DNA of 61,965 nt from Polycladomyces zharkentensis (GTDB taxonomy: Bacteria; Bacillota; Bacilli; Thermoactinomycetales; JIR-001): assembly GCF_016938855.1 (NCBI RefSeq), contig NZ_JAFHAP010000016.1, positions 1-61,965 of the forward strand, written 5' to 3'. Positions 15,730 through 50,978 of this stretch are shown here, in pieces. Position 1 is the stretch's first letter. Every line of letters starts with the position of its first letter. A program made the translations under genes and the position numbers. The notes beneath the pieces are model-generated. The model saw nothing but the letters and a program-made list of their open reading frames with translations. It searched no databases and was not told the DNA's origin.

Positions 15730-17658
15730 TCAACGTCCACCGCCCCAAATTTGACGTCCGCCTGTATGTCTTATGTTACCATGGACTCTAGATTTCACAA
15801 GTTGCATTAACCCTTCTTCCTGATGATGGTGCCATACATACCCAACTGGATCTTCCCCTTTACTAATCCATTCATGATTGGCTTTGATGAACTCTTCTTT
15901 TAACTTTGGGTTTTTATTTAATTTCTCAATAAGAGTAGCACTTCCCCTCCCGGAAGACAATTCGGATAACTCGGAATCAGAAAGATTGTTTTTTATCACA
16001 GGATTATCTCTAATAAACACCTTTAGTTTTTCGATTCCAGGGCTATTTCGATCTCCAATTCCTTTCTCTAATACTTCCAGAAATGTATTGTCTATTTTTT
16101 TTGTCAGTTCAGGATTGTTTTCCATATCTTTAGCTAAACGTTTATCAAGTAGCTTAAATTGAGTGTCATCAACCAATAAATACTGATCAACATTTAAACG
16201 GGATTCATAATCTGTCCATTGTCTAAAATCAGGAAATCCGTTTTGGTCAAACGGCACCTCATACTTCTGACCATTAACATCAATAGTAAAATTCTTGCCT
16301 GCGTATGAAGAGTTGCGAATAGCTCTTTCTCTCCCATCATAATACGTTAAATATTTTTTTCCGTTTTTATCCACAACTTTACCAGCATTTTCATTTGGAG
16401 AAAACTCCTTTTTCGATGAAGGTTCTTGACCGTATTTTCTTAAATTCGCTGCACGAATGCTTTCTCTTTCAGATTCAGATAGCCATTTGGCGGCCTGAAC
16501 ACCTTCCGAAGATGCCGTTTGACCTGCAAACTTCTGTAACCACTGTCCAAAAGCTGTATCGCCAATTTTGGGTTGGTATGTACTCCCGTTAGCTAAAACA
16601 ACCTCTTGCGCAAAGGGGTTTTTGAGATTGTTAATCCCTTGAATGAGTTGGGTGCCGTATTTATTGATATAATGCCCACCGCTAAACAAAAGCAATGTAG
16701 CTAGCGCTGAAATACCAGCTTTTTTCCAATCTATTTTTCTTCCATGAAGAATATCATCCGAAGCGGATGCTGTACCACCAGCACCTATAAACTTCATAAA
16801 ATTACTGACATAAGGGGCCAATCGTTGGACAATAGGCTTGGCGACTTTTCCCAGAACAGATGTGAGAGTTTGCCCGATCCCTTCTCCAACACCGTGGGTA
16901 ATCAGACCGACAATGCCGCCAATCATTATGTCTCTAGCGATTTCCTTTGGGCCATTACCTTGAAGATAAGAGAACAATCCTCCTATTCCAGACCCACCTA
17001 ATATGGAATAGCCTGCCCCTCTGACGATCAGGGCAACCCCTGCTTCTTCAGCGAACGGCACAAAACATAAAACTACACCAAGTACGACCGTTCCAATCGC
17101 TCCGAGCTCTTCTGTATGGTCCTTGATCCAATCCCAAACATCTGAAGCGACACCCTTGGTAAAATCCCATGCTTTACCTGAGTACTCCTTCGTTTTATCC
17201 CATAACCATCCCAATCCATTCTTGAATGAGCCCCATAAACCAGTATCCTGCTTGTTTTTCAACGGTTGGATATGAGGTTTTTGTTGATTGCCATCACCTA
17301 GAGGCCCCAAGTTTGGAGGGGAATGATTGCTTCCCTCATAGGATAATGAGGAGTATGGTGATTTTTGATCAAACTGAGAAGCTCCCTGTAAGATACGGTT
17401 ATGAGATGAAGAGCCTCCGCCTACAAAGGCTTCACATCCGGCTAACACACTGGCATCCTGATTGATACGAGCGATTTGGGTCTTAATCGCGCATGCCATT
17501 GACTTTTTGACCGGTTCACTGATGACAGCGTTAAAAATAGCTAGTCCCAACAACGCAGCCGCACTCATCACGATGACATATTCAATGGTTGGTGATCCAC
17601 GCCGGTTCCCCAAAACTCTCGAAAATATGCCTGATAAGGCACTCCAAAATCCCCTCAA
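15730..17658 (-). CDS. Polymorphic toxin with a pilin-like N-terminus and a WHH-type HNH nuclease end
   Basis: 642 residues from a TTG start behind GGAGGG. Residues 15-45 (NRRGSPTIEYVIVMSAAALL) look like a Flp/TadE class III signal: G, then the E at +5-type position and a hydrophobic helix. The middle has hydrophobic helices (LGAIGTVVLGVVLCFVPFAE and GISALATLLLFSGG) resembling pre-toxin regions. The end, YVWHHHQEEGLMQLV with HTGGRQIWGGGR, matches HNH/Endo VII toxins with a WHH motif, which cut nucleic acid. The closely following gene is the likely immunity partner. Confidence 0.8.
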   Translation of the reverse strand: MRGFWSALSGIFSRVLGNRRGSPTIEYVIVMSAAALLGLAIFNAVISEPVKKSMACAIKTQIARINQDASVLAGCEAFVGGGSSSHNRILQGASQFDQKSPYSSLSYEGSNHSPPNLGPLGDGNQQKPHIQPLKNKQDTGLWGSFKNGLGWLWDKTKEYSGKAWDFTKGVASDVWDWIKDHTEELGAIGTVVLGVVLCFVPFAEEAGVALIVRGAGYSILGGSGIGGLFSYLQGNGPKEIARDIMIGGIVGLITHGVGEGIGQTLTSVLGKVAKPIVQRLAPYVSNFMKFIGAGGTASASDDILHGRKIDWKKAGISALATLLLFSGGHYINKYGTQLIQGINNLKNPFAQEVVLANGSTYQPKIGDTAFGQWLQKFAGQTASSEGVQAAKWLSESERESIRAANLRKYGQEPSSKKEFSPNENAGKVVDKNGKKYLTYYDGRERAIRNSSYAGKNFTIDVNGQKYEVPFDQNGFPDFRQWTDYESRLNVDQYLLVDDTQFKLLDKRLAKDMENNPELTKKIDNTFLEVLEKGIGDRNSPGIEKLKVFIRDNPVIKNNLSDSELSELSSGRGSATLIEKLNKNPKLKEEFIKANHEWISKGEDPVGYVWHHHQEEGLMQLVKSRVHGNIRHTGGRQIWGGGR

Positions 17659-18087: not shown

Positions 18088-19206
18088 ATGATATTTAGAA
18101 AAGGGGAGTTATTTTGCGGGCCTGGTGGTTTAGCTTTAGGTTGTAAACTTCCACAATCTATTAATAAGAAAACAGGAGAGGTTTTTAAAGTAGAGCACAC
18201 GTGGGCAAATGATATTGATCCTTATGCATGCCAAACTTTTAGAAAAAATATTTGCCCAGATAATCCCGAATCTGTTATTTGTAAAGACGTCCGTGAATTA
18301 GAAATTGAAAAGTTACCTCCCATTGATTGCTTTACATTCGGATTTCCATGTAACGATTTTAGTATTGTTGGAGAACACAAAGGTACAGATGGAAAGTATG
18401 GTCCACTTTACACATACGGTGTAAAAGTATTAAATTACCATAACCCATTGTTTTTTATAGCGGAAAATGTTGGTGGACTTCAGAGTGCAAACGAGGGAAA
18501 TGCCTTCAAAAAAATACTTCATGATATCGCAAATGCTGGTAAAGGGTACAACATTACTCCTCACTTATACAAATTTGAGGAATATGGAGTACCTCAAAAA
18601 AGACATAGAATAATTATTGTTGGTATAAGAAAAGACCTTAACCTACAATTCCGTGTACCTGCACCTACCCACGTGGACAGATATGTAACAGCTCGTGAAG
18701 CGTTAGAAGTACCTCCTATACCACCTGATGCTGCCAATAATGAGCAAACGCGTCACAGCTCCAAAGTAATTGAAATGCTGAAATATATCCCACCTGGTGA
18801 GAATGCATGGTATGATGGAATCCCAGAAGAACTACGACTTAATGTAAAAAAGGTTAAAATGAGTCAGATCTATAGAAGATTGCATCCTGATGAACCAGCT
18901 TATACTATTACCGGATCAGGTGGTGGCGGTACTCACGGTTACCATTGGAAAGAAAATCGGGCACTCACAAACCGTGAACGTGCAAGATTGCAAACATTCC
19001 CGGATGATTTTGTATTTGAAGGTCCAAAAGAAATGGTTAGGAAACAGATTGGTATGGCAGTTCCCCCATTGGGAGCAAAAATAATAATGCAAGCAATACT
19101 TGATACATTCGCTGGTAATCGATATAAATGGGTAGAGCCTAAATGGAATTTTGAAGAAATGGAAGGAAATGATCTGGTAAAAGTCCTTCAAGAACAAGCA
19201 AACTGA
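18088..19206 (+). CDS. DNA (cytosine-5) methyltransferase of a restriction-modification system
   Basis: 372 residues with the C5-methyltransferase motifs: LFCGPGGLALG (I), FGFPCNDFS (IV, catalytic Cys), AENVGGL (VI), GVPQKRHRIIIVG (VIII), RERARLQTFPD (IX) and IGMAVPPLGA (X). It methylates cytosine in the host's recognition site. It converges on the restriction gene, with one shared terminator. The target site cannot be read. AT-rich composition suggests acquisition. Confidence 0.9.
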   Translation: MIFRKGELFCGPGGLALGCKLPQSINKKTGEVFKVEHTWANDIDPYACQTFRKNICPDNPESVICKDVRELEIEKLPPIDCFTFGFPCNDFSIVGEHKGTDGKYGPLYTYGVKVLNYHNPLFFIAENVGGLQSANEGNAFKKILHDIANAGKGYNITPHLYKFEEYGVPQKRHRIIIVGIRKDLNLQFRVPAPTHVDRYVTAREALEVPPIPPDAANNEQTRHSSKVIEMLKYIPPGENAWYDGIPEELRLNVKKVKMSQIYRRLHPDEPAYTITGSGGGGTHGYHWKENRALTNRERARLQTFPDDFVFEGPKEMVRKQIGMAVPPLGAKIIMQAILDTFAGNRYKWVEPKWNFEEMEGNDLVKVLQEQAN

Positions 19207-19226
19207 AGCATTGCTTCAGTTTGCTT
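19199..19226. terminator. Bidirectional terminator of the R-M pair
   Basis: GCAAACTGAAGC/GCTTCAGTTTGC, a perfect twelve-pair stem with a three-base loop, between convergent genes. It overlaps the last codons of the methyltransferase. Confidence 0.7.
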
Positions 19227-19239
19227 GAACATCATGTTC

Positions 19240-20853
19240 CTATACCTGTTTAATTACATTCATAAACTCCCCAAATGTTTTGTAACCTCTATTCTTAATG
19301 GCGTTCAAAAACATCTGTAACCTCTTTTCCTTTGCAATGTTATTCTCAATACAATAATCCAAAAAAGAAAGAAGGACTCTGGCACTAATGATTATTCCAT
19401 TTATATCTTTATTAATGATTTTTTTTGCTTTCTCGCTAATCCTAACTAAATTATTTTCACCACCAAAATCATTCGCAGTTACATAACCAAAAAAGCACAA
19501 TTCTCTACCTTCAAAGTTATCATAGTTTGGAATATACTCAGATGCCATATGAGATGCTAACGATGCACTAAGCGAGAATTTTTGACGATAATTTTTGGTA
19601 TCAATTATTCCACATTTATTTTCTCCATATTTTAGTAAAATCTCAATTTCTGTTTTAGTATTTGCCGAATCTGGTCTCATGACCACTTGAAACCCTAATG
19701 CATTTAGCACTTCACCAGTTTTATCCTCAAATTTAAGGTTATTTTCTTCTGATAAGTAACTTTCTACAAAATCGTTATTTAGCTGGTCAAATCTTGATGA
19801 ATTTTGAGCAACTTCAAAAGCTAATTTCTTTGCTTGCGCAGGATTAAACTCCTGTCTAAATATCTGCTCAAGCTTTTCTATACTTAGATTTGAAATACTA
19901 GGATAGTCTTTCAACAATGATTTGACTTTTATCTCCTTTTTTCTTGCGTTTGATGCAGGTTTTTTTTCTCCCATCCTAGTAGCTTTATAGCTATCCACAT
20001 CTAATCCGCTATTTTCATACATGCGCTCTCTAGATATTAAATATCGTTTATTAAAAGGATAACGGGTTTCAAAGTAATCCAATTCTTCTTTTATACTAGT
20101 ACTTTTTTCTGGATTAACTCGTAAAGCTTTACCTCTTATATACTCGACTAGACCAGTGTATTCACTAATTAACATAAATGTATGTGCTACATCAGAATGA
20201 TTTTCTTCAAAGCTTCTCGAATCTTTATCGACACGATCCCTGTGATCATAACAATTCGCTATTTCTTCTTTCATTTCAATCTTCTTTTCAATAGGGGAAT
20301 GTCTGTAATCAACAATCTTATGGATTACTTCGTCCAAATCAGAATCTTTCTTAGCAGTTAAAGCGAAATAGGTTATTTCCTCTTTTGTTAAATAATAATC
20401 AAGTAATTCTTGATTGGTTAAGCGAATCAAAAACAATATTGGACGGATCTCAAATCCTTCATCAAATTTAGGTCGAAATCCAGGTTCTAAAAAGTAAGCA
20501 TTTGGAATTTGGAATGTAAGAATCTGTTTCTTGATATTCTCAAACACTTTTTTTCCTTCCAATATTGCTAATCCAACTTTAGTGGGAACTATGTATCCAT
20601 CATCATTAGTGTAACAGTAAGAAAATGTTTTTAGTAATGCAAACCAAGTTCGTCCTCCAGAACCATCATGGCTTACGTTATTTCTTTTTAGATTAGCTAA
20701 CGACAAAGCTCGTTCATATTCCTTATGAACTTCTCTATTACGATCCCATTTAATTGTAAAGTTATTTGTCGCTTTCTTAAGAGCCATTAACGCATCTCTG
20801 TGAAAATGAGGATCGCGTTCAGGCCGTGTAATAAACCACGTTTTCCTGCTCAT
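19240..20853 (-). CDS. AlwI/N.BstNBI-family type IIS restriction endonuclease
   Basis: 537 residues. The N-terminus (TWFITRPERDPHFHRDAL), GGRTWFALLKTFSY, KKQILTFQIPNAYFLEPG and YLTKEEITYFAL match the AlwI/MlyI/N.BstNBI family as I recall it. A PD-(D/E)XK-like nuclease region sits late (about residues 385-430: VVMRPDSANTKTEIEI then GIIDTKNY). These enzymes bind short asymmetric sites such as GGATC or GAGTC. The ribosome site is GGAGG. The partner at 18088 is one C5 methylase, whereas the characterised relatives use adenine methylases, so specificity may differ. Confidence 0.75.
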   Translation of the reverse strand: MSRKTWFITRPERDPHFHRDALMALKKATNNFTIKWDRNREVHKEYERALSLANLKRNNVSHDGSGGRTWFALLKTFSYCYTNDDGYIVPTKVGLAILEGKKVFENIKKQILTFQIPNAYFLEPGFRPKFDEGFEIRPILFLIRLTNQELLDYYLTKEEITYFALTAKKDSDLDEVIHKIVDYRHSPIEKKIEMKEEIANCYDHRDRVDKDSRSFEENHSDVAHTFMLISEYTGLVEYIRGKALRVNPEKSTSIKEELDYFETRYPFNKRYLISRERMYENSGLDVDSYKATRMGEKKPASNARKKEIKVKSLLKDYPSISNLSIEKLEQIFRQEFNPAQAKKLAFEVAQNSSRFDQLNNDFVESYLSEENNLKFEDKTGEVLNALGFQVVMRPDSANTKTEIEILLKYGENKCGIIDTKNYRQKFSLSASLASHMASEYIPNYDNFEGRELCFFGYVTANDFGGENNLVRISEKAKKIINKDINGIIISARVLLSFLDYCIENNIAKEKRLQMFLNAIKNRGYKTFGEFMNVIKQV

Positions 20854-39226: not shown

Positions 39227-40915
39227 TTATCGTAAAAGATCACTAATTGAGACAAATTCCACTTTCCCGTTGGATTGTGACACTATCATGCGTTTCATCA
39301 CTTCGGTGTGAGCATTCAACAAGGCGGCGAATCCATCGATCTTCCGGTACCGGTTCTGTTTGGTCGGCATCCAGTTGCCATTCCGGTCTTCCACCAATTT
39401 CACGTTGTTAAGATACCAACGGAACAGCTTGTTCTGGTTGTAAACCACTTTTCCATCAAGCAGAAGCTCCTTTACGTCCTTCATAGCCGGGCTGAGTGTT
39501 AAAGCCCCTTGCCGGACGACCTGTGTTTGAAAACCGTGCACTTTCAAATCTTCCACCAACCGGTAAGCATTGGCCGGATCGTAGGTGATCAGCTCGATGG
39601 CGTACCGTTTGGATTGCTCAACAAACCAGTCAAAGACATATTTGTAATCCACATAGTCTCCCGGACAGATTGTCAGCAATCCTTCCCTTTCCCATTCTCG
39701 AAAAGGCAGCTTTTCGTTATCTAATTCGACTTTTCGCTGTGGGATAAAAGAATGGGATAAGACAAAAACCCGCCCATCATCGAGCGGAAACTCCAGACAT
39801 GCAGCAGTAAAATCCTCGGTCTGTGACAGGTCAAACCCACCCACACAGTTCTTGCCTTCCAACTCGGCAAGGTCGATCCATCCGTCATTACGCCTGATCA
39901 CCTCGTAGTCGATGAAGGACTGCTCATCGGACTGAACGAACAGGTTCAGTCGCTTGGTGATGAAGTCGTTTCGCTCCGCCGGGATGCTCTTCCGGGCATT
40001 CCACTCCTCGATCATAGTGTCAAGGTCAATGGTTACGCCCAGGTTCGGGTTCGCTTTCACCCAATTGTCCGGATTGTCGATATCATCATCCTCATCCAAT
40101 TCGGCGATAAAATAAAAGGACCGTTCATCCTGGATCACGCCTTCCAGCACGTCAGCCGCCTTTTCGTAATAGTCCATCAGTGGCCCATCCAACTGGTAAC
40201 CGGCGGTTGTGATGTACAGGATGAGTGGTTGTGTCCGGGCACCGGTACTGTTTTTGATGACGTTAATCAGTTTGTAGTCTTTGTACTCGTGGATTTCATC
40301 AAATATGGCGAGATGAGCATTCAAACCGTCCAGTTTCTCACTGTCGGACGCTTGCGGTTCAATCTTCGAGAACGTCTGATCGTAGTGGATCGCGTCCCGC
40401 AAGACACGGAAGTGTTTGGACAAGAGCGGGGAAGATTTGACCATCTTCTGGCACTCATCGAACACCACACGGGCCTGCTTCATACTGTTGGCCAAAAGGT
40501 AAACATCTGCGCCTTTTTCGCCATCCTTGGAGCATCCGTAGTTGGCTAGGCCACTAACCATGGTACTCTTACCGTTTTTCCTAGCAACAAAAATAAGCCC
40601 CTCTTTGAATCGACGGAGCTTGGTGTCTTTATGAACCCAGCCGTACAGGGAGCCGATCACAAAATGTTGCCACGGCTGAAGTTCTAAGCGCTTATAGTTG
40701 CCTTTGGATGGTTTGCAAAACCGTTGGATGAACGTAATCGGCCGCAAGGCTTTTTCCTCATCGAATACATAGGGAAAATCGTCTGTTCCTTGACGCTTCA
40801 AGTCTCTCAAATGGCGTTCACAAGCCTGACGAACCTTCTTGGAAACAATAATCTTACCGGCAACTGCATCCTCAGCATATGACGTGGTGAGCAGATCAGA
40901 ACGCTTCGAACTCAT
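39227..40915 (-). CDS. Terminase large subunit
   Basis: 562 residues. ATPase part: EGLIFVARKNGKSTMVSG (Walker A-like) and HLAIFDEIHEYKD (Walker B). Nuclease part: CVGGFDLSQTEDFTA with later acidic residues. Belongs to the HK97/phiE125 TerL group, which usually cuts cos sites. It overlaps TerS. Confidence 0.92.
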   Translation of the reverse strand: MSSKRSDLLTTSYAEDAVAGKIIVSKKVRQACERHLRDLKRQGTDDFPYVFDEEKALRPITFIQRFCKPSKGNYKRLELQPWQHFVIGSLYGWVHKDTKLRRFKEGLIFVARKNGKSTMVSGLANYGCSKDGEKGADVYLLANSMKQARVVFDECQKMVKSSPLLSKHFRVLRDAIHYDQTFSKIEPQASDSEKLDGLNAHLAIFDEIHEYKDYKLINVIKNSTGARTQPLILYITTAGYQLDGPLMDYYEKAADVLEGVIQDERSFYFIAELDEDDDIDNPDNWVKANPNLGVTIDLDTMIEEWNARKSIPAERNDFITKRLNLFVQSDEQSFIDYEVIRRNDGWIDLAELEGKNCVGGFDLSQTEDFTAACLEFPLDDGRVFVLSHSFIPQRKVELDNEKLPFREWEREGLLTICPGDYVDYKYVFDWFVEQSKRYAIELITYDPANAYRLVEDLKVHGFQTQVVRQGALTLSPAMKDVKELLLDGKVVYNQNKLFRWYLNNVKLVEDRNGNWMPTKQNRYRKIDGFAALLNAHTEVMKRMIVSQSNGKVEFVSISDLLR

Positions 40916-48249: not shown

Positions 48250-48378
48250 TTAATCCGCAAGCATCGCAAACGCATAATCAAAGCCCATCAGCAACATAAC
48301 AATTTCGTCTTCCTCTTCTTTTCTCACCCATCTAAACACTCCACCAAGGAAAAGCAGGAGGGAAAGGATGTTAAGCAT
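48250..48378 (-). CDS. Small membrane-like protein (42 aa)
   Basis: MLNILSLLLFLGGVFRWV then an acidic segment. Its ATG overlaps the methyltransferase stop (ATGCTTAA), suggesting translational coupling. Function unknown. Confidence 0.5.
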   Translation of the reverse strand: MLNILSLLLFLGGVFRWVRKEEEDEIVMLLMGFDYAFAMLAD

Positions 48379-49276
48379 CTTTTTCCGTGGCCTCCCTTAT
48401 TGCTCGTAAGATTTGATAGGCCACCTGTGGAACAATCGCGTTCCCCAGTGCCTTGAGCCGTGGAACTCTGTTTGTTACTCCTGTGGCAACCCGGGGCGGC
48501 TCCCAGTCGTGTTGAACTGATCCAAAAGCGGCGGGCCATCGGTGTCCGTCCAACCAATCGGAAAGCCCATCAGTGCTTCGACCCATTCGGCGTTGAGTTT
48601 GCCGGAATGACCGCTCCTGATCACCGCTCCCGGGATCGAGTCCCAATCTTTCATTGACGGTGGGAGAGTTGAATTTTTCCCATCGTTCGCTCTTGGTGTC
48701 GGCCACAGTTTCACCGCCGTCTGGATATTCGGGCCACCCTTGCCGTGTTTGCCGGCTCCTGTGTGACAATTCGCGTGAGGTGTGGGCCACAATCCAGACC
48801 CGATCCCGTCTATGTGGGGCGCCGACGGCACAAGCTGGTATAATAAACGTCCGCGTTTCGTAATCTTCGTTTTCCAAGTCATCGATGATGAGGTCGAGGG
48901 CCAGTTTGACAAATCCAACAACGTTTTCGATAAGTACCCAAGGGGGTCGAAGTTCTCGGACGATCCGATACATTTCCGGCCAGAGGTGTCGTTCGTCGTT
49001 GATTCCCCGCTTTTTGCCCGCGACTGAGAATGGTTGACAAGGTGGGCCACCGCAAATAAGTCCAATTGTACGGTCATCGTCTATCACCCCGTCCTTTTCT
49101 AATCTCTCCCGGGTGATTTCCCGAACGTCTTTATAAATCGGAACCTGTGGCCAGTGGCGGGAAAGTACCTGCCGGCAATACGGGTCAATTTCGCAGAAAG
49201 CGACCGTCTTGATACCAGCCCAGTGCGCAGCCAAGGAAAACCCACCGATACCGGAAAACAGGTCTAACATCCTCAA
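48371..49276 (-). CDS. Phage DNA (cytosine-5) methyltransferase
   Basis: About 300 residues; start either TTG 49276, overlapping the rusA stop, or ATG 49270. Motifs: MLDLFSGIGGFSLAA (I), GGPPCQPFSVAGKKRG (IV), LIENVVGF (VI), VGAPHRRDRVWIVA (VIII) and VPRLKALGNAIVPQVA (X). It probably protects phage DNA from restriction. Its central and target-recognition region overlaps another conserved-looking frame (48475-49077). Confidence 0.88.
   Translation of the reverse strand: MRMLDLFSGIGGFSLAAHWAGIKTVAFCEIDPYCRQVLSRHWPQVPIYKDVREITRERLEKDGVIDDDRTIGLICGGPPCQPFSVAGKKRGINDERHLWPEMYRIVRELRPPWVLIENVVGFVKLALDLIIDDLENEDYETRTFIIPACAVGAPHRRDRVWIVAHTSRELSHRSRQTRQGWPEYPDGGETVADTKSERWEKFNSPTVNERLGLDPGSGDQERSFRQTQRRMGRSTDGLSDWLDGHRWPAAFGSVQHDWEPPRVATGVTNRVPRLKALGNAIVPQVAYQILRAIREATEKDA
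48475..49077 (-). CDS. Overlapping +1-frame ORF with phage-like motifs
   Basis: A 200-codon frame wholly inside the methyltransferase gene. It contains SMTWKTKITKRGRLLYQLVP, GLWPTPHAN, LWPTPRANDGKNSTLPPS and LNAEWVEALMGFPIGWTD. From memory these occur together in phage proteins linked to DNA methyltransferases. The start ATG (MTVQLDLF) overlaps codon 67 of the methyltransferase; no good ribosome site is seen. It may be dual coding or a relic of overprinting. Confidence 0.45.
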   Translation of the reverse strand: MTVQLDLFAVAHLVNHSQSRAKSGESTTNDTSGRKCIGSSENFDPLGYLSKTLLDLSNWPSTSSSMTWKTKITKRGRLLYQLVPSAPHIDGIGSGLWPTPHANCHTGAGKHGKGGPNIQTAVKLWPTPRANDGKNSTLPPSMKDWDSIPGAVIRSGHSGKLNAEWVEALMGFPIGWTDTDGPPLLDQFNTTGSRPGLPQE

Positions 49277-49656
49277 CCCGTGGCCACCTCTTTTTCGGGT
49301 GTGTATTTGGTGACTGTTACCTGTACTTGTTCTTTTTGTGGTGTTGTTACGTAGTGCTTCCGGGCGTGGATTTCAGCCACTTGCCTGTCATCACTCCATG
49401 CGATGCCGTTCAGCGCGTCCAAGATGATCTTTTGCATGTTGTCAATGTCGCCTTCCTTGCCATATTTCAGGAGGTAAATATCCATTTTCACAGCCACAGG
49501 ACCATCAAAGCGTGGAACCTTCGCCGCTTTCGCTGCCCAGGCGACATCATGACGGTATGACATGTACCGAAGTACCTTAGGCGAACGCTTACCACGATAC
49601 GTCATCCGAGGAGCCGGAACGCACCGGCCCGCAACGGTGAAAGTAAATCGGTTCAT
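49273..49656 (-). CDS. rusA: RusA-family Holliday junction resolvase
   Basis: 127 residues from the ATG at 49656 (MNRFTFTVAGRCVPAPRMTY); a TTG start at 49707 is possible. GDIDNMQKIILDALNGIAWS with the following DDRQV holds the catalytic aspartates of RusA. It resolves recombination junctions. Confidence 0.87.
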   Translation of the reverse strand: MNRFTFTVAGRCVPAPRMTYRGKRSPKVLRYMSYRHDVAWAAKAAKVPRFDGPVAVKMDIYLLKYGKEGDIDNMQKIILDALNGIAWSDDRQVAEIHARKHYVTTPQKEQVQVTVTKYTPEKEVATG

Positions 49657-49675
49657 CGTAACCACCACCCCATCG

Positions 49676-49864
49676 TCAGATATCCCAGTAAGTCCACAAC
49701 AACTCAAACCGGATCGTTTTCCCTTGCTCCTGGCATTTTGGGCAACATGGCCAATTCATCACTCGATATTCCGGGATCGTAACAACCTCTTTGCACTCTG
49801 GGCACTGATAGACACCATACAGGATCAAATCCATATCATCCGGTCCGACACCTTCAAGAATCAT
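49676..49864 (-). CDS. Zinc-ribbon mini-protein (62 aa)
   Basis: CPEC and CPKC pairs. Ribosome site GGAGGG; start overlaps the previous stop (ATGA). Unknown role in early phage functions. Confidence 0.65.
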   Translation of the reverse strand: MILEGVGPDDMDLILYGVYQCPECKEVVTIPEYRVMNWPCCPKCQEQGKTIRFELLWTYWDI

Positions 49865-50136
49865 CGTTTTACCCTCCTCCCATACACTCCACCCGGTCGT
49901 GGTTTAATGAACCCTTTCCTAGTTCGATCCATGATGAGGATGGCCACCTCGTCCGGGTCTCTCATGCATGCGTTGGCAATATCCCAGATAGAAAACCCTG
50001 CGTTCCACATCCGCTCAATGTCGGGAATCTCGGCTTCATCCCAGAAGAAATTGAAATCCAAATCATCCAAGGCGATGTATATTTTCCGCCGCTGGATCGC
50101 CAACGGTGTAACGGTTCCGGTCGGCCCATAGATCAC
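49861..50136 (-). CDS. Phage early protein with a helix-turn-helix-like segment
   Basis: 91 residues from GTG, coupled to the helicase-loader stop. FFWDEAEIPDIERMWNAGFS and IWDIANACMRDPDEVAILIM look like a DNA-binding helix pair. Function unknown. Confidence 0.65.
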   Translation of the reverse strand: MIYGPTGTVTPLAIQRRKIYIALDDLDFNFFWDEAEIPDIERMWNAGFSIWDIANACMRDPDEVAILIMDRTRKGFIKPRPGGVYGRRVKR

Positions 50137-50978
50137 CGCTCCCTCATCCGGTAGTCATCGCCCTTCACTTGGAGGAAAAAATCTTTCGCCATCCCGGACA
50201 GCCGAGAAAATGCCGCCGGTCCGATCTTTTCGCTTAGTGTCATCGGGTCCTCATTGGAGCTAAACAGGATGGGACGCCGCGCTTTGTATCGTTCGTTGAT
50301 AATCTGGTAATATAAATCCTCTTTCGTCTCGCTGTATTTGCTCTTTCCGATGTCGTCCCATACAAGAACCGGTGCTTGTACCACTGCACCCATCAACCGG
50401 TTAAACTCAATTCCTCCATCATCGATCCGTTTGGAGTTAACCAATTCGTTCATAAACACTGTGTCCGAGATACAAAGGACCGCGTAACCCCGTCGGATCA
50501 ATTCTTTCGCCGCTGCCATCTGAAGATGGGTCTTGCCAAGACCGTAGCTGTTATAAATCCGTTCGTACTCCGCCCGCTTTCGCAGATCACCAATCCGTCG
50601 GATTTGTTGCTCCCCCACTTCGGCCACAAATCCCATACTGTTCGCCTTGGTGTCTTTGATCTCATCAAAACGGGCCAGGTACTCCTTGGTCATCTGCAAA
50701 AGTTCCTGTTGTACAGGCGTTTCGACTTTGTAGTTGTCCAGCCGAGCGTCCACAAACTCTTCCGGGATCATGGCGTTTCTCATCCGGCGTTGGAGCCGTT
50801 TCCGCTTAAGGCAGGAACACGGCCTAGCCGTCCAACCGTCGATGATCCATTCTCGATCCTTGCAAATCTGGCACTCAACCGCCGACTCTGCGCCCGAAGT
50901 TTGCGTATTTCCCGAAGTTGATGATAGGCGTTTCATCTTTTCGATCCGTTCCATAATGTCCTTGATAGCCAACACCAC
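50133..50978 (-). CDS. DnaC/IstB-type helicase loader
   Basis: 281 residues. A Cys-rich N-terminal patch (CQICKDREWIIDG, PCSCLKRK) precedes the AAA+ ATPase: Walker A YGLGKTHLQM, Walker B VLVWDDIG, sensor FSSNEDP. The first Walker A glycine is replaced (NSYGLGKT). It loads the host replicative helicase on phage DNA. Its 5' end overlaps the upstream gene by 104 bases; an internal start is possible. Confidence 0.82.
   Translation of the reverse strand: MVLAIKDIMERIEKMKRLSSTSGNTQTSGAESAVECQICKDREWIIDGWTARPCSCLKRKRLQRRMRNAMIPEEFVDARLDNYKVETPVQQELLQMTKEYLARFDEIKDTKANSMGFVAEVGEQQIRRIGDLRKRAEYERIYNSYGLGKTHLQMAAAKELIRRGYAVLCISDTVFMNELVNSKRIDDGGIEFNRLMGAVVQAPVLVWDDIGKSKYSETKEDLYYQIINERYKARRPILFSSNEDPMTLSEKIGPAAFSRLSGMAKDFFLQVKGDDYRMRER

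Follow-up and report, generated by a model that had tools for sequence, protein, structure and literature searches.

Lee, Kam and Shaw are said to have found in 1995 that the gene for the small subunit of M.EcoHK31I is nested in that for the large one, in another frame. According to the available portion of a published account, M.EcoHK31I (YGGCCR) consists of two polypeptides, the large one carrying motifs I to VIII and X and the small one only motif IX, with the predicted recognition domain placed in the large subunit; M.AquI (CYCGRG) also consists of two polypeptides, with motifs I to VIII on one and motifs IX and X on the other (PMC3404938). The same portion describes the small domain of C5 methylases as the variable region plus motif IX, located between motifs VIII and X (PMC3404938). 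The accessible part of another source counts EcoHK31I among the restriction-modification systems (PMC6456624). For phages of the Streptococcus thermophilus 5093 group, the accessible text reports total overlap of two C5 methylase open reading frames (ORFs) in different frames, cites a pneumococcal phage and Tn5252 for the same overlap, and offers in that text no role for the second product (PMC5601072). A table in the accessible part of a Paenibacillus larvae phage paper names DNA-cytosine methyltransferase twice, in adjoining rows (PMC6070908).

We analyzed a stretch of 61,965 nucleotides of Polycladomyces zharkentensis (contig NZ_JAFHAP010000016.1), referred to as the window. It encodes a prophage methylase, alpha, and a second ORF, beta, which lies entirely within the alpha gene (48371-49270, or 49276 with the alternative start) in phase +1. 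A first-pass annotation of this DNA had described the beta ORF with exact position, strand, and length, and coordinates bear out its remark that a stretch of alpha and the second LWPTP of beta share bases. It had also reported LWPTPxAxD twice in beta; LWPTP does occur twice, but only the second copy fits the longer pattern. The features of the locus are as follows.

48371-49270, minus strand: alpha, putative large subunit of a C5-cytosine DNA methyltransferase (ATG at 49270; TTG at 49276 is a possible alternative start)
48475-49077, minus strand: beta, nested +1 frame gene, ATG to stop, 200 amino acids, phrog_1008
49085-49090, minus strand: GGGGTG, weak possible ribosome-binding site, 8 to 13 bases 5' of the beta ATG
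49232-49264, minus strand: alpha motif I, DLFSGIGGFSL
49025-49051, minus strand: alpha motif IV with the catalytic cysteine, GGPPCQPFS
48914-48940, minus strand: alpha motif VI, WVLIENVVG
48788-48820, minus strand: alpha motif VIII, APHRRDRVWIV
48425-48457, minus strand: alpha motif X, LKALGNAIVPQ
48832-48879, minus strand: conserved stretch of beta, TWKTKITKRGRLLYQL
48766-48792, minus strand: first LWPTP of beta, LWPTPHANC
48679-48708, minus strand: second LWPTP of beta, LWPTPRANDG, on the same bases as alpha VADTKSERW (48680-48706)
48544-48597, minus strand: motif-IX-like segment of beta, LNAEWVEALMGFPIGWTD
49273-49707: neighboring gene, RusA
50133-50978: neighboring gene, IstB/DnaA-like ATPase
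39227-40915: neighboring gene, large terminase

Judged by these sequences, a prophage setting fits the gene neighborhood of the locus. The locus is a dual-coding gene pair, and its products most likely form an EcoHK31I-like methylase of two subunits in which the nested one has taken over recognition. We give a probability of roughly 0.75 to the whole reading, namely, a prophage-borne orphan C5-cytosine DNA methyltransferase made of two subunits, with beta supplying recognition. Alpha would be the catalytic large domain, with S-adenosylmethionine (SAM) binding, the catalytic cysteine, motifs I to VIII, and motif X at its end, and its approximately 90 residues between motifs VIII and X would form a loosely constrained linker. 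Beta would be translated separately in the +1 frame, from an ATG of its own within the alpha gene, and would supply the target-recognition region and motif IX, which in other C5 methylases are located between motifs VIII and X. By analogy with the protein families involved, the two polypeptides would assemble into one active enzyme, a heterodimer, and the methylated phage DNA would be shielded from host restriction.

Compared with M.EcoHK31I as the available text describes it, the window large subunit likewise has motifs I to VIII and X without motif IX, and the small subunit carries a IX-like segment (E 0.0074; whole profiles, 0.07); the beta gene is also nested in another frame, as that of M.EcoHK31I reportedly is. 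Unlike in the described enzyme, recognition in the window methylase is predicted to lie in beta and not in the large subunit, and the window methylase sits among prophage genes. Plasmid searches with the window proteins gave no record named EcoHK31I among the matches listed. A layout resembling that described for M.AquI is seen in 7 of 266 distinct loci, in which beta and motif X share one frame, but not in the window, where motif X is in alpha, beta is wholly nested, and motifs IX and X are not together on the small subunit.

The match of alpha to Pfam PF00145 covers model positions 1 to 199 of 324 and stops there; among phage families, alpha matches phrog_363. It keeps motifs I to VIII and X and is without a recognizable motif IX; the monomeric PF00145-type layout, with motifs I to X in one polypeptide, is not found in it. 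The first-pass annotation had assigned all catalytic motifs to the main frame, which holds for I, IV, VI, VIII, and X; no motif IX was seen there, and the IX-like segment sits in the +1 frame. AlphaFold2 modeled alpha with a pTM of 0.71, placing residues 1 to 170 and approximately 275 to 300 confidently and giving most of residues 178 to 264 a pLDDT below 50, and we read this middle portion of the model as disorder. Foldseek matched the model to M.HhaI and M.HaeIII over approximately 170 columns. The small domain between motifs VIII and X is missing from alpha. Because residues 166 to 270 evolve mainly in the beta frame, as described below, and are modeled with very low confidence, they point to recognition by beta.

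The best PHROG match of beta is phrog_1008 (E 2.8e-33), labeled DNA methyltransferase; good matches were to phage families only, and phrog_1008 was matched by all 95 beta sequences scanned. Searches of PDB, Pfam, and NCBIfam gave chance-level matches and no relative. Modeled alone by AlphaFold2, beta reached a pLDDT of 61.7 and a pTM of 0.27; so poor a model might be compatible with folding only beside a partner, although it is not positive evidence for this. The best-conserved segment of beta has the consensus LNPxWVEWLMGFPIGWT (LNAEWVEALMGFPIGWTD in the window). The C-terminal profile of beta aligns, at an E of 0.0074, with the motif IX found in other methylases (KLTPRECWRLQGFPD), and none of 200 column-shuffled profiles scored as high; this match is one short segment, and the whole-profile comparison gives an E of 0.07 and a probability of 0.8%.

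Relatives of beta were found in 75 of 50,697 annotated phage records (E 1e-5), 54 of them Paenibacillus phages. In phage Shelly, and likewise in phage Lily, the match is annotated as "g55 internal gene," internal to the methylase; this Paenibacillus larvae phage product is 36% identical over 97% of beta and represents, as PHROG 1008, the same nested gene as window beta. Otherwise, the relatives are assigned no distinct role in the records examined, being labeled either hypothetical or a second "DNA methyltransferase." Since overlapping phage methylase ORFs have been published and an "internal gene" has been annotated, this kind of locus is already known. Our literature search, which covered few subscription papers, did not turn up any description of beta as the small domain that alpha lacks, nor of the selection-frame switch, the breadth, or the module swaps reported here.

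We collected 263 sequences, the window included, from individually collected loci, viral contigs (best 80 of 479 and best 80 of 454), and prokaryotes (one genome per species; best 80 of 86 beta relatives). A tblastn search with beta gave no match in three (L008, L009, and L256). Among the 260 matched sequences, which come from best-80 lists and the individual loci, beta overlaps a methylase in the +1 frame in 256, and its match span is free of stops in 259 (the last 25 residues not counted). The beta-bearing phages include those of Paenibacillus, Escherichia, Mycobacterium, Bacteroides, Acinetobacter, and Xanthomonas. Because these loci were retrieved with beta, its presence in them is built into the collection, but the constancy of its +1 phase is not. 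When alpha served as the seed (best 80 of 578), beta was found in the +1 frame in 80 of 80 loci, at scores of at least 71.6 bits, with 77 nested and 3 having motif X in the beta frame. In 45 of these 80, the beta was already among the earlier loci, and because the alpha profile was built from beta-bearing loci, the scan is uninformative on other methylase families.

After removal of 75 duplicates with identical beta DNA, 266 distinct loci remained. In 231, beta is nested and alpha is open from its N terminus to motif X; in 5 more the phase is nested but alpha contains a stop, 7 are split, beta sharing its frame with motif X, one end of alpha was not found in 16, and 7 show other arrangements. 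A pattern scan of 453 loci found motif IV and the motif-IX-like segment in one open frame in three: L229, from a Pelosinus metagenome-assembled genome (MAG), with motifs I to X in one 419-amino-acid ORF; L235, from Flavonifractor sp. An100; and L259, from a Lawsonibacter MAG. The first half of beta remains in the +1 frame in all three, so this layout possibly arose by an indel in a nested ancestor, and for the two MAGs, the shared frame may stem from assembly error. These loci show the place to which the IX-like segment belongs but do not imply that fused enzymes are widespread. A phage search with the shared-frame L229 protein listed first Paenibacillus phages with three-piece matches. The first-pass annotation had offered, besides dual coding, a family that moved between frames; with the same modules found nested, split, or in a shared frame, this holds in part, alongside dual coding.

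A second nested family occurs in complete phage methylases. In a set of these (L264 to L343), which are of the same kind as L008, the target recognition domain (TRD) and motifs IX and X are in the main frame. The +1 frame is nevertheless open over motifs IV to VIII in 64 of 65, with 9 stops versus 355 expected; downstream it is full of stops (699 observed versus 580 expected). The +1 product is conserved and approximately 130 to 160 amino acids long (e.g., L266:1673-2065, plus strand), and it matches phrog_16143 in 37 of 37 sequences scanned. By hhalign, its profile is related (E 5e-7) to that of beta residues 1 to 95, a similarity to which shared alpha constraint may contribute. Its frame also leads selection for approximately 30 codons past motif VIII (22 pairs). 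Relatives of this product were found in 143 named-phage records, mostly from phages of Streptococcus and other Firmicutes, and a PDB search with the family found nothing. Phages 5093 and P0092 match this family. The 5093 group, as described in the accessible text, thus resembles the window in reading one stretch of DNA in two frames to give two methylase products but differs in which family is nested and, judged by the L264-to-L343 set, in a main frame that keeps the TRD and motifs IX and X. Eighty loci seeded with a complete phage methylase gave no beta match in 71 and weak matches (18 to 27 bits), to the first half only, in 9. We also considered the idea that the end of this second family, DILExxVxEKYFLS, is a common in-frame segment past motif VIII of ordinary methylases and rejected it, as the pattern occurs in 0 of 21 whole-genome methylases.

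Because these complete methylases also carry a nested +1 ORF, the first half of beta may serve a function separate from the recognition domain, and a nested +1 gene may have existed before it came to act as a recognition subunit. In a broader reading, to which we give somewhat less than even odds, nested +1 genes are a general and old feature of phage C5 methylases. At least two families would share a +1 coding first half over motifs IV to VIII, the recognition and IX-X modules would have been repeatedly redistributed (shared frame, split, or nested), these would be among the most widespread long dual-coding phage genes, and besides completing the enzyme, the nested protein may perform some separate task.

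The same observations lend some weight to the idea that beta is an independent phage protein, such as an anti-restriction or regulatory factor, with a fortuitous likeness to motif IX: complete methylases bear a nested ORF related to its first 95 residues, and neither AlphaFold2 nor PDB searches link beta to a methylase. We consider this improbable, since alpha is without recognition domain and motif IX exactly where the second half of beta lies, the IX-like segment stands in the methylase's own frame in three loci, and the likeness to motif IX beats every shuffled profile.

To test for coding, we shuffled synonymous codons within alpha, which preserves its protein and codon use. In 2,000 such shuffles of the window gene, the +1 span was never open (mean, 5.8 stops). 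Scored with a profile built from 94 other betas, the real +1 product gave 227.8 bits, and 1,000 shuffles reached at most 121.7 (mean, 81 bits). Across 173 distinct genes, the beta spans contain 8 stops versus 786 expected, and 165 are free of stops versus 7.5 expected. In the reverse shuffle, synonymous for beta and applied to its second half, 389 alpha-frame stops were expected and 0 observed in 145 genes, with alpha open in 145 of 145 versus 12.9 expected; as these genes were preselected for an open alpha, the fairer figure is the 231 open versus 5 interrupted loci given above.

Openness upstream also bears on programmed ribosomal frameshifting, by which a +1 shift after motif VIII, followed in nested loci by a shift back before motif X, would yield a single full-length methylase and no separate beta. 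The junction does lie directly past motif VIII, one shift would be enough in the 7 split loci, and most characterized C5 methylases are monomers in the available portion of one account (PMC3404938). However, over motifs IV to VIII, far upstream of the junction, the +1 frame has 0 stops in 173 genes versus 562 expected, which a shift after motif VIII does not need, and the 231 nested loci would each require two shifts. We regard frameshifting as slightly less probable still than an independent beta.

The complete phage methylases, intended as a negative control, proved to be nested themselves, and we therefore used whole-genome C5 methylases as the comparison for the first half. Of 30 fetched by Pfam, 21 were measured; the 9 left out did not match the motif patterns. 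Stops interrupt the +1 frame over motifs IV to VIII in 18 of the 21 and are absent in 3, one of which (L430) is the same place as L008; in total, 128 stops were observed versus 150 expected.

In a +1 overlap, codon position 1 of alpha is position 3 of beta. We measured substitution rates at alpha positions 1, 2, and 3 in pairs of genes. In 13 independent pairs of distinct genes at 1 to 12% divergence, the rates upstream of the overlap were 0.022/0.006/0.113; the first half of beta gave 0.017/0.008/0.038, its second half 0.105/0.026/0.031, and the part after beta 0.043/0.027/0.133. Pairs at 12 to 25% divergence (n = 25) gave 0.107/0.063/0.347 before the overlap, 0.112/0.057/0.184 and 0.420/0.223/0.244 in the first and second halves, and 0.136/0.101/0.384 at the motif X end. 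For the second half, dividing the position-3 rate by the position-1 rate gave 0.29 for the closest pairs (bootstrap, 0.18 to 0.40), 0.58 at 12 to 25% (25 pairs), and 0.78 at 25 to 33% (46 pairs); outside the overlap, this ratio ranged from 1.95 to 3.23 in the latter two sets. On a 15-codon map, the fast position switches just after motif VIII and returns just before motif X, indicating that selection follows alpha, then mainly beta, then alpha again. Complete phage methylases show an ordinary pattern in the region of beta's second half (0.199/0.133/0.349; 12 to 25%, 19 pairs). The lower position-3 rate in the first half was dropped as proof, as complete phage methylases show a similar drop.

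That no second protein exists, the +1 reading being a by-product of main-frame conservation or base composition, has next to no chance of being right: shuffled window genes still average 81 bits and 9 of 80 other phage methylases match weakly, but synonymous shuffling of alpha destroys the open frame, most whole-genome methylases have +1 stops over motifs IV to VIII, and the fast position 1 refutes this reading for the second half.

Signals for a start of beta are modest across the group. In 124 of 173 genes, compared with 86.6 expected, an ATG lies close to the homologous start position, and the Shine-Dalgarno match before it averages 3.81 of 6 versus 3.44 (137 genes with ATG). The stop and substitution results show that beta is a real gene and that the locus is a dual-coding pair with selection on both frames. 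The first-pass annotation had proposed dual coding, and the frame is indeed open, conserved in phages of several phyla, and marked by its own substitution pattern; it has many homologs and is uninterrupted in nearly all relatives, contrary to the two outcomes named there as grounds for giving up the idea.

Gene finders usually retain one frame per stretch of DNA. In several phage records, the large frame alone is annotated, so that the recognition half of the methylase would be missing or be filed as a second methylase, and the specificity of such methylases would not be readable from alpha alone. If the two-subunit reading is true, the locus encodes a naturally split enzyme in which one chain catalyzes and the other handles recognition, and its relatives form a large data set for dual coding. 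To our knowledge, few phage studies document long overlaps on one strand in which both frames are clearly under selection.

Several smaller observations concern individual genomes. Five places on one uncultured Roseovarius chromosome (OX638333.1; L207 to L211) have beta matches identical in identity, span, and E value and are perhaps five related prophages. Three contigs of one genome (G016 contigs C14, C31, and C38; L003, L011, and L014) carry equal-scoring nested methylase copies. In Mycobacterium phage Llama (L022), a frame change after motif VI splits the methylase into two annotated genes (74 and 75), unlike in phage Nitzel. Mycobacterium phage Peaches (L023) has the split layout, with motifs I to VIII in gp77 and LPTP repeats plus a GNGVV motif X in gp76, in the +1 frame. 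The window itself also encodes a complete C5 methylase (18088-19206, plus strand) convergent with an AlwI/BpuJI-like restriction endonuclease (19240-20853, minus strand), which together (18088-20853) are likely a type II restriction-modification pair, and a 642-amino-acid protein (15730-17658, minus strand) with a colicin-DNase/WHH nuclease domain at its end, likely an antibacterial toxin.
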